64,000 bases of DNA from assembly GCA_018970145.1 (NCBI GenBank), contig JAGWWY010000003.1, forward strand, positions 62,001-126,000. Reading direction: 5' to 3'. Shown here piece by piece: positions 6,767 through 13,795 of the stretch. The notes below the pieces were generated by a model, which searched no databases, was not told where the DNA came from, and saw only the letters and a program-made list of their open reading frames with translations. The position numbers and the translations under genes are program-made. Numbering within the stretch: position 1 is the stretch's first letter; the number at the start of each line of letters is the position of its first letter. This DNA comes from Gammaproteobacteria bacterium (GTDB lineage Bacteria; Pseudomonadota; Gammaproteobacteria; Steroidobacterales; Steroidobacteraceae).

Positions 6767-7060
6767 TCAGACCTCGTAGTCGACTGAACGACGCTCCGTC
6801 GTGAGCGCCTTCACTTTCGGTACGACGGCTTGATGCAGCGGATGTGCCTGGTAAGTTTTGAGCGCCTCGAGATCGGTGAGCTCACTATAGAGGACCACAT
6901 CGGCGGCGTTGGTGTCGGTCACCACGTTCACGCCCACTTCGATATGCACCAGACCCGGGATCTGGCCTCTGAGTCCTTCCAGTAATTCTTTGATTTGGGC
7001 GGCACTGGCGGCTTTGTCGTTATTTTCGTCGAGTCGCCAGGCGACGATATGCTTGATCAT
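6767..7060 (-). CDS. Dabb family (stress-responsive A/B barrel) protein
   Basis: A 97-residue ferredoxin-like dimeric alpha-beta barrel protein. MIKHIVAWRL at the N-terminus and YSELTDLEALKTYQAHPLH are the hallmarks of the Dabb family. The ATG at 7060 was chosen over an upstream TTG because the conserved strand begins there and because it gives a 4-bp ATGA overlap with the photolyase stop. Dabb proteins range from stress-induced proteins of unknown function to small-molecule cyclases; position as third gene after oxyR and phrB favours a stress role, which is inference. Confidence 0.88.
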   Translation of the reverse strand: MIKHIVAWRLDENNDKAASAAQIKELLEGLRGQIPGLVHIEVGVNVVTDTNAADVVLYSELTDLEALKTYQAHPLHQAVVPKVKALTTERRSVDYEV

Positions 7061-8397
7061 GCCGATTCCCTCAAGGTTTGCCATGCGGCGATGGCTGCGG
7101 CGCGGGATGTTTTCAAATCGACGATGGGAACGACAGGGTAGTTCTTGTCGCCTCCGATCCAGCGCTGGATGTATTCACTCTTCGGATCAAACTTCTCGGC
7201 CTGACTTTCCGGATTGAATACTCGGAAGTAGGGTGCCGCGTCAGCACCGCAGCCCGCGGCCCACTGCCAGCCGAGCGTGTTGCTTGCCAAATCCGCATCG
7301 ACCAAGGTGTCCCAAAACCAGCGCGCGCCTTCGAGCCAGTGCAGCCGCAGGTTTTTCACCAAAAATGAGGCAACGACCATGCGTACCCGGTTGTGCATCC
7401 AGCCGGTGTGCCAAAGTTCGCGCATGCCGGCATCGACGAGTGGCACGCCGGTACGACCATGTTGCCAAGCATGCAACTGCTCGACGTCGTCGCGCCACGG
7501 GAATCTTTGGTATTCGAGTCGCAGCGGTTCGTTGGTCGTACGCGGAAAATGGTAGAGCAGGTGGTGCGCAAACTCGCGCCAACCGATCTCTGCCATGAAT
7601 TGGCTACCGCGCCACTTGGCTGCTGTATGCCAGATCTGTCTTGGCGAAATTTCGCCGAAATGCAGATGCGGTGATAGTCGTGAGGTACCCGATTGCGCCG
7701 GTAGATTGCGGGTTTCGCCGTAGTTCGCAACGCTCGTGTCGAGAAAGCGTTCGAGATGCTGCAAGGCACCACGCTCACCGGGCTGCCACGCGGCCTGCAT
7801 GCCACCGTACCAGTGGATCTTGGGTAGAAGCTTCAACGCGTCGAGAGGCGTACTCGCCGGCCATGCGGGTGGCGCCGGCAGCCGAGCAGGCGTTGCAAAG
7901 GGTTTGGGCAACTCGAGCGTAGCCGACACCTTGCGCCAATACGGCGTGAAAACCTGAAACGGCTTTCCTGAATTATTTTGGATGTCCCAAGGTTCCACCA
8001 ACAAAGCGGCATTGAAGCTGCGCGCTTCGATGCCGACATCTCGCAAGCGCTGCTTGATGAGCTGATCACGTGCGATGATCCGCGGCTCATAACGACGGCT
8101 CCAGTAGACTGCCGTCGCGCCGGTTTCTTCGATCAATTGATTCAGTTCAGCGGCACTATCTTGGGTGCGGCGGATGATGAGTCGCGATCCCTTGTCGATC
8201 AGCGCTTGCTCAAGCGAGCTCAGGGATTGATGCAACCACCAGCGTGTCGCCGCGCCTGGCGCCCATTCGCCCTCTTCCTCCGGGCACCAGAGGAACACGG
8301 GAATGATCGGCACGTGCTTGTCGACGGCCGCGGTCAATGCGGCATGGTCGGCCAGCCGTAAGTCCTGACGAAACCAAACGAGGGCCGGTGCGGTCAT
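7057..8397 (-). CDS. phrB: Deoxyribodipyrimidine photolyase
   Basis: A 446-residue class I CPD photolyase, which uses blue light to split pyrimidine dimers. Residues 1-130 are the Rossmann-like antenna-binding domain (ALVWFRQDLRLADHAAL). The FAD-binding helical domain shows GTSRLSPHLHFG (237-248), WHTGWMHNRVRM (329-340) and ASNTLGWQWAAG (371-382), and the surrounding tryptophans needed for electron transfer are present. Length is close to the E. coli enzyme (472). A cryptochrome is less likely because no C-terminal extension is present. It overlaps oxyR upstream and the Dabb gene downstream by 4 bp each, an operon that ties photorepair to peroxide sensing. Confidence 0.95.
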   Translation of the reverse strand: MTAPALVWFRQDLRLADHAALTAAVDKHVPIIPVFLWCPEEEGEWAPGAATRWWLHQSLSSLEQALIDKGSRLIIRRTQDSAAELNQLIEETGATAVYWSRRYEPRIIARDQLIKQRLRDVGIEARSFNAALLVEPWDIQNNSGKPFQVFTPYWRKVSATLELPKPFATPARLPAPPAWPASTPLDALKLLPKIHWYGGMQAAWQPGERGALQHLERFLDTSVANYGETRNLPAQSGTSRLSPHLHFGEISPRQIWHTAAKWRGSQFMAEIGWREFAHHLLYHFPRTTNEPLRLEYQRFPWRDDVEQLHAWQHGRTGVPLVDAGMRELWHTGWMHNRVRMVVASFLVKNLRLHWLEGARWFWDTLVDADLASNTLGWQWAAGCGADAAPYFRVFNPESQAEKFDPKSEYIQRWIGGDKNYPVVPIVDLKTSRAAAIAAWQTLRESA

Positions 8398-9290
8398 GCG
8401 AGTTGCTCCGCGATCACATCCGACACCATTCGGATGGCGGCCTGGCGAGCACTGCTCTTACGCCAAATTGCGCCGATGCGCCGCGAGGGTTGAGGTTTTA
8501 CAAAAGGTCGCAAGACGAGCCCACGGGGCGCGGCGTGACTACCTCGCGTGGCGAGCTCTGGCAGCAAGGTCACCCCGGCACCTGCTGCCACCATTTGCCG
8601 CAAGGTTTCGATGCTGGTGGCGCGAAAGTCCTGCTTCTCTTCGGCATCGATTCGATTGCAGACATCGAGCGCTTGATCGCGCAGGCAATGCCCGTCCTCG
8701 AGCAACAGCAACGTGACGCCGGCGAGATCCTCGACACGGATCTGTTTGCGGTCGGCGAGTGGATGGTTCGAGGGAGCGGCAACGATGAAGGGCTCGTCGT
8801 AGAGCGACCTTGTTGCAAGCCCGTCGATCTCGATCGGCAGCGCGAGGATGCCAAGGTCGAGCTCGCCCGCGCGCAGCTTCTCGAGCATGGGAGCCGTTTG
8901 ATATTCGTAGAGCATCAAGTCGAGTCGCGGGAGTGCCTTGCGCAGTTTGGGCACTACGATCGGCAGTAAGTAAGGACCTATGGTCGGCAAGAACGCGACC
9001 CGTAATTGCCCCGCCAGCGGATCTCTGTGGGTACGGGCGATGTCGACCACTTCGTCGCTCGCTTCGATGATGCGTCGCGCCCGCGCGACGATCTCGATGC
9101 CGGCGGGCGTCAGCAGAGCACCTTTCGGTTGGCGCTCGATCAGCGGCACGCCAAGATAATTCTCGAGTTTTTTCAATTGTGCGGAGAGTGTCGGTTGGCT
9201 GACGAAGCAGCGATTGGCGGCTTTGCCGAAGTGCCCGGTATCCGCCACGGCGACGAGGTAACGCAGATCTTTGAGTTTGATGTCAGCCAT
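8394..9290 (-). CDS. oxyR: Hydrogen peroxide-sensing regulator OxyR
   Basis: A 298-residue LysR-family protein matching OxyR. The redox pair is intact: Cys202 and Cys211 in HCLRDQALDVC, equivalent to Cys199 and Cys208 of E. coli OxyR, followed by FRATSIETLRQMVAAGAGVTLLP. The helix-turn-helix occupies about residues 18-38. The ATG at 9290 (MADIKLKDLRYL) is chosen because OxyR proteins start here; a longer frame upstream has no family similarity. It heads the oxyR-phrB-Dabb operon with 4-bp overlaps, so it probably autoregulates photolyase synthesis along with itself. No catalase or peroxidase gene is adjacent. Confidence 0.95.
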   Translation of the reverse strand: MADIKLKDLRYLVAVADTGHFGKAANRCFVSQPTLSAQLKKLENYLGVPLIERQPKGALLTPAGIEIVARARRIIEASDEVVDIARTHRDPLAGQLRVAFLPTIGPYLLPIVVPKLRKALPRLDLMLYEYQTAPMLEKLRAGELDLGILALPIEIDGLATRSLYDEPFIVAAPSNHPLADRKQIRVEDLAGVTLLLLEDGHCLRDQALDVCNRIDAEEKQDFRATSIETLRQMVAAGAGVTLLPELATRGSHAAPRGLVLRPFVKPQPSRRIGAIWRKSSARQAAIRMVSDVIAEQLA

Positions 9291-9318
9291 CCTGGCAGTC
9301 CATCCGAGCGATTTACGG

Positions 9319-9346
9319 CATCTATCGAAATCATCACATCTATCGA
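9319..9346. repeat. Direct repeat upstream of oxyR, possible autoregulatory site
   Basis: CATCTATCGA occurs twice, 18 bp apart (9319-9328 and 9337-9346), 29-56 bp before the oxyR start codon. Read on the oxyR strand each copy contains GATAG, the core of the OxyR half site ATAGntnnnanCTAT, but the spacing does not match the classic four-element site. Treat as a candidate. Confidence 0.4.
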
Positions 9347-9400
9347 CTGGTCTGTCGAGGGCATCGCTACCAAACTTCTCCACACCGGATTGCGGCGCCG

Positions 9401-9436: not shown

Positions 9437-9505
9437 GTTGATGAAGACTGGCGGGCTGCTATCCTGAACGAATCCCCCCGCCCGGTACGTCAGGAGTGAC
9501 CCACC

Positions 9506-9829
9506 ATGTCTTCGGCTTACGAAAAATCCGCCTATGTCGTGCTCTGTCGCGACGGGGTCACGGGCGCCACTGTGCGCGCAGCACAGACTGCGCCACACAT
9601 GGCTTACATCGAGAGCGTCATGGACGAGCTCAACGTGGCAGGTCCTTTGTACGACGAGAGTCGCGAACAGCCAATCGGTAGTCTGTATTGCCTGCAGACC
9701 CGCAGCTTGATGCGCGCCAAAGAAATCATCGAGAACGATCCCTACTTTCTGCATGGTGCATTTGAATCGGTCGAGTATTTTCCGCATCTACCGGCAGCCG
9801 GGCGGTATATCGGCGGCAAGATATGGTGA
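9506..9829 (+). CDS. YciI-like family protein
   Basis: A 107-residue small ferredoxin-like alpha-beta barrel protein of the YciI-related superfamily. The conserved histidine is in APHMAYIESVMD (about residues 31-42), and the FLHGAFESVEYFPH segment near 83-96 is the usual YciI-type C-terminal strand. The family includes a dechlorinase-like enzyme but most members have no known reaction. AGGAGT precedes the ATG at good spacing. Its last 7 bp overlap the start of the ATP-grasp gene, so it is probably the first gene of the Anbu cluster operon and not merely a neighbour. Confidence 0.85.
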   Translation: MSSAYEKSAYVVLCRDGVTGATVRAAQTAPHMAYIESVMDELNVAGPLYDESREQPIGSLYCLQTRSLMRAKEIIENDPYFLHGAFESVEYFPHLPAAGRYIGGKIW

Positions 9830-11250
9830 AGGAGGCGATTTTCGACGAGATGCACACCGCGGCCGGCGACGTACGAGCCCATTACCAAGCTTACGCCGAG
9901 TGGCTCGTGGAGACGCCCCCTGAGAGCATCGTCGAGAAGCGCAATGAAGCCGATACCTTGTTCCGCCGCGCGGGCATCACGTTCGCCGTCTACGGCGATG
10001 AAACCGGCACGGAACGATTGATCCCTTTCGACATCGTGCCGCGGATCATTCCGTCACCCGAGTGGGAGCTGTTGCAGCAGGGTTTGCGACAGCGCGTCAC
10101 GGCGCTCAACGCGTTCCTGCACGACGTGTATCACGATCAGGAGATTCTGCGCGCAGCGCGCATCCCCGCCGAGCAGGTACTTTGCAACGTGCAATACCGA
10201 CCTGAGATGCAAGGCATCGATTTGCCCATGGACGTGTATGCACATATCGCCGGTATCGATCTCGTGCGCGCAGGCCAGGGCGAGTATTACGTCCTCGAGG
10301 ACAATTTGCGTGTCCCGTCGGGTGTGTCGTACATGCTCGAAGATCGTAAAGCGATGATGCGATTATTTCCCGAGCTGTTCGCACGCTACTCGGTGTCGCC
10401 GGTCGAGCACTATCCCGATTTGTTACTCGAAACCCTGCGTAGCGTGGCGCCATCTGGCGTGCGTGATCCGGTGGTGGTGCTGCTGACACCGGGCGCCCAC
10501 AACAGTGCCTACTTCGAGCATGCATTTCTCGCGCAGCAGATGGGTATCGAGCTCGTCGAAGGGCAGGATTTATTCGTCGACGACGAGATCGTCTACATGC
10601 GTACGACTCAAGGTCCGCGCCGTGTCGATATCATTTATCGGCGCGTGGACGATGATTTTCTGGATCCGCTCGCCTTTCGTCCTGATTCCATGCTCGGCGT
10701 ACCCGGCTTGCTCACGGCGTATCGCGCCGGCCGTGTCGTCATTTCCAATGCGATCGGCACGGGGATCGCCGATGATAAATCGACCTATCCTTATGTACCG
10801 GAGATGGTTCGCTTCTATCTTGGCGAAGAGCCGATCCTGCAAAACGTGCCGACTTGGATTCTGCGTCGCGAAGAGGATCTCGAGCACGTGCTCGCCAATC
10901 TGTCGGATCTCGTCGTCAAAGAGGTGCACGGCGCGGGGGGCTACGGCATGTTGATCGGACCTTTGGCAACACAGGCAGAGATCGAAGCGTTTCGTTTGCG
11001 CATCCTCGCCGATCCCGCCCGCTACATCGCACAGCCCACGCTGGCGTTATCCGCCTGTCCCACCTTCGTCGAAGCGGGCTTGGCGCCCCGTCACGTCGAT
11101 CTGCGTCCCTTCGTGCTCTCTGGGCGCGATGTGACGATGGTTCCGGGCGGATTGACGCGGGTCGCGCTGCGCGAAGGGTCGCTGGTCGTAAACTCGTCGC
11201 AGGGGGGTGGCACCAAAGATACGTGGGTGCTCGAGCGCGCATTATGCTGA
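9823..11250 (+). CDS. Circularly permuted type 2 ATP-grasp protein
   Basis: A 475-residue member of the circularly permuted ATP-grasp family (formerly DUF404/DUF407). It is expected to be an ATP-dependent carboxylate-amine ligase. Landmarks are [19 protein letters not shown] (about 157-175), the [15 protein letters not shown] glycine-rich nucleotide loop (about 366-380), and a C-terminal [13 protein letters not shown]. Families of this type are encoded with an alpha-E protein, a transglutaminase and the Anbu peptidase, all of which follow here; a role in making and removing a peptide tag or small peptide has been proposed for such clusters. Its final codons overlap the alpha-E gene start by 7 bp. 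Confidence 0.93.
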
Positions 11251-12194
11251 GCCGCACAGCAGATCATTTGTATTGGATGGCGAGATACACCGAGCGAGCC
11301 GAAAATCTTGCGCGTATGTTGGATGTGAATTGCCGCATGACGCTGCTGCGCCAAGAGGAAGACATCACTCGCAAGCGATGGGCTTCAACGCTCGCGACAG
11401 TCGGTCAGATCGATGCCTATCTCGCTGCTCGTGACACCATCACCCAAGATGCCGCCATTGAATGGATTACGTTCGAGCACGCCAACCCAGGCAGCATCGA
11501 ACGTTGTCTCGATCGGGCGCGGGAAAATGCGCACGCCGTTCGCGGCACGCTGACCTCCGAGACCTGGGAAACGCTGAACGCGACGTGGCTTGAGCTGAAG
11601 CGCCACAAGCGCGTTGCGGTTCGTAGACAAAATACCGGTGATTTTTTCGAATGGGTCAAGTTCAGATCGCACCTGGCGCGAGGTGTCATCCAAGGTACGA
11701 TGTTGCATGACGAGGCACTCGAGTTCACCTTGCTCGGCACTTATCTCGAGCGTGCGGACAACACGGCGCGCATCCTCGACGCCCGTTTTGAACTCCTGAT
11801 GCCCGATGCGGCCGCGCCCGATGCCGCAGTCGACTATTACGAGTGGAGCGCCTTGTTGCGATCCGTATCGGCATTCGAGGTCTACCGAAAAGTGTATCGC
11901 GATCTCATTACACCGCGACGGGTCGCCGAGCTTTTGATCTTTCACGAGGCCATGCCGCGCTCTTTACGGCATTGCACACATCGCGTTCACCAGACGCTGG
12001 TAAGAGTCGCCAATGCGCGATCAGGCGAAACCACGCGCCGTTCCGGCGAGATCCAGGCGGCTCTGCAATATGGGCGTATCGACGAAGTGCTGGATGTTGG
12101 TGTTCGCGGATACCTTGCCAGCTTCTTGTCTCGAACCAGCGATCTTGGCGCACGCATCGCTCACGACTTTCTTCTGTCCGAGGCTACGGTCTGA
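11244..12194 (+). CDS. Alpha-E domain protein (DUF403)
   Basis: A 316-residue mostly helical protein of the alpha-E family. The diagnostic N-terminus [20 protein letters not shown] and the later FTLLGTYLERADNTARILD (about 167-185) are both present. The ATG at 11244 is chosen because the family motif starts there and because it overlaps the ATP-grasp stop by 7 bp. The biochemical role is undefined; genome context always ties it to circularly permuted ATP-grasp proteins, sometimes as one fused chain, so it is likely a partner or second half of the ligase. Confidence 0.92.
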   Translation: MLSRTADHLYWMARYTERAENLARMLDVNCRMTLLRQEEDITRKRWASTLATVGQIDAYLAARDTITQDAAIEWITFEHANPGSIERCLDRARENAHAVRGTLTSETWETLNATWLELKRHKRVAVRRQNTGDFFEWVKFRSHLARGVIQGTMLHDEALEFTLLGTYLERADNTARILDARFELLMPDAAAPDAAVDYYEWSALLRSVSAFEVYRKVYRDLITPRRVAELLIFHEAMPRSLRHCTHRVHQTLVRVANARSGETTRRSGEIQAALQYGRIDEVLDVGVRGYLASFLSRTSDLGARIAHDFLLSEATV

Positions 12195-12195
12195 G

Positions 12196-13053
12196 ATGTT
12201 GCTGCATATCGAACACGAAACGATCTATCGTTACGATCGGCCCGTCAACCACAGCGTTCAGAGTCTGCGGTTAACGCCACGCACCGAGGCCGGCCAACGA
12301 GTATTGAACTGGCAGCTGCAAACACCTGGACAGAAATCCGAGCAAGTCGATGCGCACGGCAATGTGATGCACTTGCTCACGATCGACGAGCCGCATGTCG
12401 AGATTCGAATCCATGTCAACGGAACCGTCGAAACGGAGTCGGTCGCTGATGCAACTCCCTCGAACCGAGGTCGTTTGTCGCCGTTGGTGTATCTGCCGGA
12501 AACGACATTGACGCGGGCCGATGACGCGCTGCGGTCTTTCGCGCAGTGCTTTGGGAAGCATCCGCTCGAACGAGACGAGGTATTGGCTCTGGCTGAGACG
12601 ATTCGTGAGCACGTTGAATACGTGCCCGGCTCGACTGACGTATCGGACTCCGCAGCCGGTGTTTTCGCATTACGTCGTGGTGTTTGCCAGGATCACGCGC
12701 ACATCATGCTCGCTTGCTGCCGTAACCTCGGTGTGCCAGCGCGATATGTGAGTGGCTATCTGTTGACCGAGCGCGACGATCACATCGCAAGTCATGCTTG
12801 GGTCGACGTATGGTTGAACGAGTCGCAACGCTGGTTCGCCGTCGACGTCACGAACGGTGTCCCGGGCGGTTCTCATCATTGTCGCCTCGCTGTCGGGCGC
12901 GATTATCTCGACGCTTGTCCCGTGCGAGGCGTCCGTCGTGGTGGTGGCGCGGAAACCATGGCGGCCACGGTCGCGGTATCGTCCGATGAGGTACCGCGCC
13001 GTAGCGCTGCGCCGCGACCACGTTTGCTGCAACAACGACAGGCCCAGCAGTAA
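12196..13053 (+). CDS. Transglutaminase-like cysteine peptidase, Anbu cluster
   Basis: A 285-residue bacterial transglutaminase-like protein. The N-terminal beta domain begins MLLHIEHETIYRYDRPV, and the Cys-His-Asp triad is read as Cys in RRGVCQDHAHIML, His in IASHAWVDVW and Asp in FAVDVTNG. The ATG at 12196 directly follows the alpha-E stop (1-nt gap). Relatives in these clusters are thought to act as peptidases or amidases, not cross-linkers, and could trim or remove the product of the ATP-grasp ligase. That pairing is inference from conserved context. Confidence 0.93.
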   Translation: MLLHIEHETIYRYDRPVNHSVQSLRLTPRTEAGQRVLNWQLQTPGQKSEQVDAHGNVMHLLTIDEPHVEIRIHVNGTVETESVADATPSNRGRLSPLVYLPETTLTRADDALRSFAQCFGKHPLERDEVLALAETIREHVEYVPGSTDVSDSAAGVFALRRGVCQDHAHIMLACCRNLGVPARYVSGYLLTERDDHIASHAWVDVWLNESQRWFAVDVTNGVPGGSHHCRLAVGRDYLDACPVRGVRRGGGAETMAATVAVSSDEVPRRSAAPRPRLLQQRQAQQ

Positions 13054-13069
13054 CACAGTAGAATCAGTC

Positions 13070-13795
13070 ATGACTTATTGCGTCGCCACGCTACTCGATA
13101 CCGGCCTCGTCTTTCTTTCGGACTCGCGCACCAACGCCGGTGTTGATCACGTCAACACTTTTCGTAAGATGCACGCGTTCGAGCGTTCGGGCGATCGCGT
13201 ACTCGTTTTGATGACCTCCGGCAACCTTGCTGTCTCGCAAGCGGTCGTGCACGAATTGCACGAGTGTATTGCCCAAGCGAACGCTCGCAGTCTCTTCAGT
13301 GTCAAAAGCGCGTTCGAGGCAGCGGCGTTGGTTGGTGAGACCTTGCGCGCCGTACATCATCGTGATGCCGCCTCGTTGAAGGAACACGGTATTGACTTCA
13401 ATGCGGCCTTCATACTCGGTGGTCAGATTCGAGGCGAAGCACCGAGACTGTTTCATGTCTACGCCGCCGGCAACTTCATCGAAGCGACCGAAGACACGCC
13501 GTATTTCCAGATCGGTGAGTCGAAGTACGGCAAGCCGATCCTCGACCGAGTTATCACGCGGTCTTCGAGCATCGCCGAGGCCACCAAGTGTGCGTTGATC
13601 TCGATGGACTCGACGATCCGTTCCAATTTGTCTGTCGGGCTGCCGCTTGATCTGATCTGCGTGCGCCGCGATGCCCTGAAAGTTCAGCTACACCGCAGCA
13701 TCACGGCCGAGGACGAATACTTCCGCATGATCCGCTCTGGCTGGGGCGATAGTTTGCGACACGCCTTCCACACCCTGCCCAATCCGACTTTCTGA
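13070..13795 (+). CDS. Anbu, proteasome-related peptidase (bacterial proteasome homologue)
   Basis: A 241-residue N-terminal-nucleophile hydrolase of the Anbu (ancestral beta subunit) family related to HslV and proteasome beta subunits. It starts MTYCVATLLDTGLVFLSDSRTNAGV; removal of Met would expose Thr as nucleophile, and the SDSRTNAG and LMTSGNLA motifs are typical. The start at 13070 is 16 bp after the transglutaminase stop and is the family start. Anbu proteins assemble into open ring or helical particles and their substrates are unknown. It ends the five-gene cluster and converges on the RND pump gene. Confidence 0.94.
   Translation: MTYCVATLLDTGLVFLSDSRTNAGVDHVNTFRKMHAFERSGDRVLVLMTSGNLAVSQAVVHELHECIAQANARSLFSVKSAFEAAALVGETLRAVHHRDAASLKEHGIDFNAAFILGGQIRGEAPRLFHVYAAGNFIEATEDTPYFQIGESKYGKPILDRVITRSSSIAEATKCALISMDSTIRSNLSVGLPLDLICVRRDALKVQLHRSITAEDEYFRMIRSGWGDSLRHAFHTLPNPTF

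Follow-up and report, generated by a model that had tools for sequence, protein, structure and literature searches.

A four-gene Anbu cluster in published order, its probably independent neighbour yciI, and a glutamine-rich tail on its transglutaminase-like protein

Within a 64,000-nucleotide (nt) stretch of a Steroidobacteraceae genome of 2.43 Mb (the window: contig JAGWWY010000003.1 of assembly GCA_018970145.1, positions 62,001 to 126,000 of the forward strand), five genes run in series that encode a YciI-family protein, a circularly permuted ATP-grasp protein, an Alpha-E protein, a transglutaminase-like (TGase) protein and the peptidase Anbu. The last four make up a complete Anbu cluster in the published order and of an already known kind, and this part of the preliminary description of the locus stands; its further claim, that YciI is a coupled fifth member, is not supported. 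Comparison with relatives indicates that YciI is very probably an independent neighbour gene rather than a member of the cluster. The best lead of the analysis, and a more interesting one than the YciI pairing, is a glutamine-rich tail at the C-terminus of the TGase-like protein. The genes and the tail, with protein lengths in amino acids (aa), are:

9506-9829, + strand: yciI, encoding YciI (PF03795), 107 aa; Pfam YCII 2.5e-9, 37.9 bits, cut-off 24
9823-11250, + strand: circularly permuted ATP-grasp gene, 475 aa; Pfam CP_ATPgrasp_2 5e-166; PDB 3n6x E 2.8e-225
11244-12194, + strand: Alpha-E gene, 316 aa; Pfam Alpha-E 3.5e-90
12196-13053, + strand: TGase-like gene, 285 aa; Bact_transglu_N 1e-24, Transglut_core 1.5e-22
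13024-13050, + strand: Gln-rich C-terminal tail LLQQRQAQQ of the TGase-like protein, read from the window protein
13070-13795, + strand: Anbu gene, 241 aa; phmmer matches in the PDB; Thr1/Asp17/Lys32

Open reading frames, Pfam and phmmer bear out the order of the five genes on the + strand, as well as the 7-base overlap between the YciI and ATP-grasp genes (9506-9829 and 9823-11250) that had already been noted. The ATP-grasp and Alpha-E genes likewise overlap by 7 bases, 1 base separates Alpha-E from TGase and 16 bases separate TGase from Anbu; all five are real genes rather than chance reading frames. The TGase-like protein has Cys164, His200 and Asp217, placed by what we take to be their motif contexts. 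Anbu scores 20 bits against Pfam Proteasome, under the cut-off of 22.4, but with phmmer it finds five distinct sequences in the PDB at E values of 1e-94 to 3e-72, of which three bear the name Anbu and two the name Peptidase. Thr1, Asp17 and Lys32, reported as candidate catalytic residues of Yersinia Anbu in passages of PMC6376114, are present in all 10 genus Anbu sequences read, window included. YciI belongs to its family by a score above the Pfam cut-off and by a His/Asp pair that aligns to that of TftG, His31 and Asp78 being invariant across 13 aligned sequences. The YciI profile aligns to TftG (4lbh) and HI0828 (1mwq) with E about 1e-10; both share PF03795 and the aligned His/Asp with the window protein, a distant similarity. 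TftG is described in parts of PMC7641849 as a dehydrochlorinase needing its His-Asp dyad, within a YciI family that is little characterised.

The same four genes in the same order, with Thr1/Asp17/Lys32, are described for Yersinia bercovieri and other Anbu operons in passages of PMC6376114 and PMC5666114. Unlike in those operons, yciI precedes the cluster here, in one genus; the word YciI is not present in either paper, and a literature search joining YciI and Anbu found no publication. The cluster of Paracoccus ferrooxidans pFER4 (L297) has, as annotated, the same four genes in the same order, and there YciI is unmatched by profile, the nearest annotated upstream gene encoding a hypothetical protein. 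A further relative, Burkholderia cenocepacia I35_5080-5083, shares DUF404/407, DUF403 and two transglutaminase-like proteins according to passages of PMC5491218, which on this cluster make no mention of Anbu. The Burkholderia cluster is there described as dependent on NtrC and sigma-54, whereas no sigma-54-like site precedes yciI or the cluster in the window. Sigma-54 control of the cluster in this genus was rejected as a candidate, since no site with at most two mismatches was found at these positions in the window or in nine of 10 relatives (two with short stretches; the one two-mismatch match is in genome G001), and the pattern is weak, given 36 sigma-54-like matches across the whole window.

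Direct evidence on the standing of YciI comes from gene content, order, presence or absence, and conservation among 40 relatives, 24 of them in the genus (the window genome, G000, counted). YciI occurs in 18 of these 24 and a full-length ATP-grasp protein of the genus type in 14, with stumps of 90-95 aa in two more and only distant ATP-grasp proteins in G011. The conserved neighbourhood runs from photolyase and oxyR through ahpC-ahpD, yciI and the Anbu cluster to RND efflux genes, the ahpC-ahpD and Anbu parts being variable, and all four combinations of YciI and cluster occur: both, YciI alone, cluster alone and neither, so that the two do not share presence and absence. YciI adjoins the cluster in G000, G001, G004 (where the contig stops inside the TGase gene), G006, G008, G009, G010, G012, G014, G015, G021 and G023. 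In G003 and G005 it is present and ATP-grasp is unmatched genome-wide. It stands with a decayed cluster, an N-terminal ATP-grasp stump of 90-95 aa, in G002 (L053 8790-9110) and G017 (L064 10353-10655), the G017 stump reading in frame, as the sequence stands, into the final Anbu codons. In G019 YciI is present and the cluster relocated behind a gene that by eye resembles a quinone oxidoreductase. In G011 full-length Anbu lies beside YciI (L060 8466-10089), with ATP-grasp, Alpha-E and TGase-like genes undetected between them. The reverse is seen in G020, where the cluster occupies the same site, ATP-grasp directly after ahpD, and YciI was not found genome-wide; a contig break falls inside ahpD there, with both sides overlapping. 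The interval from oxyR to the RND gene holds neither YciI nor the cluster in G013 (only ahpCD is there) and G007 (oxyR beside RND), and both were also unfound in G016, G018 and G022, which are 81-83% complete and in which the site is unreadable (oxyR unmatched in two, a contig end in G018).

A species tree built from nine flanking proteins puts the losses on different branches (G017; G002 by G001; G003 by G020; G013 by G012/G001/G002; G005/G019). Repeated loss of the cluster within the genus, with YciI usually persisting, is therefore probable. One genus thus displays both cluster loss with YciI kept and the reverse. The ratio of non-synonymous to synonymous substitution rates (dN/dS) of YciI is 0.03-0.24 in 12 of 13 pairs and 0.48 for G017-G011; these ratios indicate purifying selection on YciI whether or not the cluster is present.

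The pairing itself proved to be about as well kept as that of some unrelated neighbours. Among the 19 genus relatives with fetched stretches, and with adjacency set at 500 bases, YciI and ATP-grasp are adjacent in 13 of the 14 carrying both, stumps counted. Photolyase-oxyR (16/17), w3983-w4965 (11/11) and Dabb-photolyase (12/12) are comparably conserved, as is RND-w16948 (12/12), which is likely a functional pair. Since local synteny reaches the same level as the YciI-ATP-grasp pairing, adjacency alone is no evidence of a functional link.

A survey of the class for YciI beside the ATP-grasp gene was negative outside the genus. Anbu occurs in 69 of 274 class genomes, the window genome counted; among the other 68 there is a PF03795 match in 63 and an ATP-grasp match in 65, and by coordinates read by eye none of the 68 has a PF03795 gene less than 20 kilobases (kb) from Anbu or ATP-grasp, the nearest YciI-family gene lying about 20.1 kb away (G051); contig breaks could conceal some pairs. 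A YciI profile built from the genus gave no match in seven plasmid-collection loci or in 72 class stretches that extend at most 6.5 kb ahead of Anbu. YciI is matched in 154 of 296 order genomes; 24 of the YciI genes outside the genus were viewed together with about 1.5 kb on either side, and none has ATP-grasp, Alpha-E, TGase, Anbu, ahpC or oxyR as a neighbour. As far as the fetched stretches of at most 6.5 kb reach, only eight of the 72 class loci have ATP-grasp upstream of Anbu on the same strand. Anbu is often without an upstream ATP-grasp gene, or divergent from ATP-grasp/Alpha-E (L139, L295, other class and plasmid loci). A search of viral contigs, sensitive to close relatives only, found no close relative of the window Anbu.

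Transcription signals upstream of the cluster bear on the same question. The relevant features are:

9438-9465, + strand: promoter-like element of yciI (TTGATG, 16 nt, extended -10 TGC-TATCCT), with TGNTATNNT conserved
9311-9347, strand unassigned: conserved block of 37 bases that looks like a tandem OxyR site, recurring across genus genomes
8394-9293, - strand: LysR regulator resembling OxyR, in divergent orientation to yciI; its start was set within a longer open reading frame; LysR Pfam domains

In 15 of 17 genomes the motif TGNTATNNT occurs no more than 90 nt ahead of yciI, with or without a preceding ahpCD, against a mean of 0.08 and a maximum of 2 in shuffled controls (the genomes being related); the element is absent from the list of a consensus promoter scan. 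A TATNAT element stands before ATP-grasp in five of nine genus copies read by eye (G008, G014, G021, G020 and the relocated G019). The 7-base overlap is confined to G000, G004, G006 and G023, so that co-transcription is plausible there but recent.

The scenario we favour is that an ordinary four-gene Anbu cluster would lie downstream of an unrelated yciI in the oxyR/ahpCD locus of this genus, YciI being a small TftG/HI0828-family enzyme in its own right, presumably with its own promoter and dispensable to the cluster. Among the window's nearest relatives the spacer would have closed until the genes overlapped, and yciI and the cluster probably share a transcript there today, a recent and probably accidental coupling. 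Several observations weigh against this scenario. YciI and the cluster tend to co-occur in the genus, and YciI and the genus-type cluster are adjacent in 12 of the 13 genomes having both, window included. Other local pairs are less well kept (w4965-Dabb 6/10, w16948-w18144 9/12, oxyR-YciI 11/17, Anbu-RND 10/12), and the overlap in the window clade makes co-transcription of yciI and the cluster likely there. The promoter and OxyR elements are sequence resemblances, and many of the genomes surveyed are fragmented metagenome assemblies in which contig ends could hide distant pairs. It is possible to argue from the overlap, the conserved His/Asp pair and the frequent adjacency that YciI truly belongs to the pathway as its fifth member and processes a small molecule for it, but we consider this very unlikely: each of YciI and the cluster is found without the other, yciI has its own promoter-like element, the pairing was seen in none of the 68 other Anbu genomes of the class, and the adjacency is comparable to that of photolyase-oxyR and w3983-w4965. 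A pairing found only in the genus, with a conserved promoter-like element belonging to yciI itself, is largely the state of affairs in which the preliminary description held that the coupling would have no meaning. YciI therefore comes off the list of candidate Anbu-pathway enzymes.

Perhaps the cluster was recruited to the peroxide response, behind a unit facing OxyR, in which case oxidised proteins would be what Anbu acts on in this genus. The product of the divergent regulator gene has PRK11151 (OxyR) as its best NCBIfam match, at 299 bits and below the cut-off of 329, and the 37-base block beside oxyR recurs in all 19 genus genomes examined. In G001 oxyR is divergent from ahpC-ahpD-yciI-cluster, as it is across contig ends in G012, where ahpC/ahpD end a contig. 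Outside the genus, in G262, Alpha-E is followed after about 0.9 kb by an AhpC-like gene (L255 3486-4064), and uncapped 20S proteasomes are implicated, in passages of PMC5666114, in degrading oxidised proteins. Yet the window copy of the block agrees with the OxyR consensus at 12 of 20 positions, a score equalled by 51 of 1000 shuffles. On that score the idea of a strong OxyR site at yciI was rejected, and we place weight only on the conservation of the block, which scores 15 and 16 of 20 in the outgroups G025 and G037. The block is also some 110 bases away from the -10 element of yciI. The TATNAT element before ATP-grasp in several relatives and the repeated loss of the cluster while oxyR stays also speak against recruitment, as does the survey of the 72 class loci, some of them cut by contig ends, in which oxyR and ahpC are unmatched in up to 6.5 kb upstream of Anbu. 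Literature matches for YciI or Anbu with OxyR concern other matters, by title and start of abstract. Since the block is conserved and its window copy is non-significant alone, peroxide control of the cluster is possible and unproven, and we regard recruitment to the peroxide response as quite improbable. Genes of the AhpC-TSA and AhpD families lie between oxyR and yciI in G001, G002, G003, G005 and G019, and the oxyR/ahpC/ahpD arrangement also occurs in G025 and G037, which belong to other families, so that it appears older than the association with YciI.

The glutamine tail of the TGase-like protein follows a variable linker and is Gln-rich in all nine genus proteins read to the stop codon. 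It is likewise present in the six gene-bearing plasmid-collection loci (Caballeronia, Aeromonas, Paracoccus, Methylobacterium, Shinella and Sinorhizobium) and in G294 and G037. A search of the phylum matched TGase-like proteins in 193 of 398 genomes, and 70 of these proteins were examined: 30 loci, 13 of them from one family label (f175), and 20 further and 20 low-scoring matches, both sets hand-picked among the matches listed. Grouped by operon, 52 belong with ATP-grasp/Alpha-E and 18 are paralogues from ATP-grasp/TGase operons without Alpha-E, these controls being more distant from the window protein than the cluster proteins are. The C-terminal residue is Gln in 38 of the 52 and in none of the 18 (Fisher 2e-8, which ignores relatedness), and Gln occurs in the last five residues in 47 of 52 versus one of 18 (Fisher 5e-11, with the same proviso); excluding L314, L316 and L317, counted as cluster members with Alpha-E undetected in a short stretch, gives 35/49 and 44/49. 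The last ten residues contain on average 3.2 Gln in the Alpha-E operons and 0.2 in the paralogues. Where a genome has both kinds of TGase, only the Alpha-E-linked protein bears the tail in four of five cases (G740, G937, G928 and G830; not G815). Among the other cluster proteins a terminal Gln is found in 0/52 ATP-grasp, 5/49 Alpha-E and 2/36 Anbu proteins, and Gln in the last five residues in 4/52, 15/49 and 6/36, respectively.

It is conceivable that the tail is simply a disordered, compositionally drifting C-terminus without function, and we regard this as possible rather than probable. The body of the tail is variable, five of the 52 cluster proteins (L329, L331, L337, L344 and L366) have no Gln in the last five residues, and distant short TGase-like proteins near such clusters have no tail. 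Of seven distinct complete short proteins of this kind from the class and order, the closest two (L175, L209) end in Gln, and the distant L149, L222, L258, L261 and L284 do not, with at most two Gln in the last eight residues; against generality, too, the L258 gene lies about 0.4 kb after Alpha-E and its product has no terminal Gln. Drift would not readily account for the retention of Gln over 46 distinct last-eight strings, for its tenfold enrichment in the last six residues over the protein body, for its absence from the end of every paralogue, or for the 22 of 24 family labels among the matches listed in which, read by eye, one or more proteins carry Gln within the final five positions. Two other origins were rejected. 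The tail is no by-product of the downstream Anbu start: 14 of the 16 proteins whose fetched stretch includes no Anbu have it (for G786 and G770 the Anbu gene follows shortly past the end of the stretch), as do 10 of the 11 genomes that yielded no Anbu. The mixed CAA and CAG codons in the window speak against a DNA repeat. A structure model of the TGase-like protein was unusable, with a mean predicted local distance difference test (pLDDT) score of 37.6 from five close sequences.

Another scenario, which we put forward tentatively, is that the TGase-like protein carries its own substrate: the Gln tail would be the site at which the enzymes of the cluster build or attach a glutamyl or peptide product, and Anbu, where present, would cut or recycle it. 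A TGase-like protein with its own Gln tail beside an amide-forming enzyme suggests such a built-in substrate. In the accompanying working model, itself a doubtful one for now, the ATP-grasp protein would form an amide or peptide bond, the TGase-like protein would supply or transfer a glutamyl group and Anbu would trim or remove the product. Iyer and colleagues are said to have proposed, in 2009, a tagging role for the cluster. If the scenario holds, the Anbu pathway would gain a defined substrate by a logic reminiscent of the C-terminal Gln of Pup, and the tail would offer a short, mutable peptide handle on the cluster whose modification could be read by mass spectrometry.

By passages of PMC7947786, the Pup/PafA/Dop system likewise has a C-terminal Gln, an amide-forming ligase and a proteasome relative often near, and we draw on it as an analogy only. 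Pup is a separate small protein there, and PafA and Dop have a glutamine-synthetase fold; here the window protein does end in QQ, but an ATP-grasp protein takes the place of a PafA/Dop-type ligase, and the tail sits on a TGase-like protein of 285 aa rather than on a small free modifier. Unlike in the Pup setting, the tail also occurs where no Anbu was found. The Yersinia ATP-grasp protein released phosphate from ATP and Yersinia Anbu had no peptidase activity on the substrates tried, according to passages of PMC6376114, which also describe a pull-down in which the TGase bore a C-terminal FLAG tag, so that its natural C-terminal end would be masked. The Gln tail goes unmentioned in the glutamine and transglutaminase passages of PMC6376114 and PMC5666114, and a literature search over titles and starts of abstracts found no report of it. 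PMC12096838 was set aside as a source on the role of the cluster, as its relevant passages concern another, membrane-bound protein.

Some minor features of the surrounding gene content can be added. The window genome is without a close copy of its relatives' oxyR-linked ahpC and has a different AhpC (L223 5337-5945; NCBIfam AhpC equivalog, 322 bits), followed by a gene that by eye resembles the AhpF reductase; no genus genome among the matches listed has both AhpC types together. The window photolyase (7057-8397) is shorter near its C-terminus than those of G005 and the outgroup G025, and its length varies among the genus members read.

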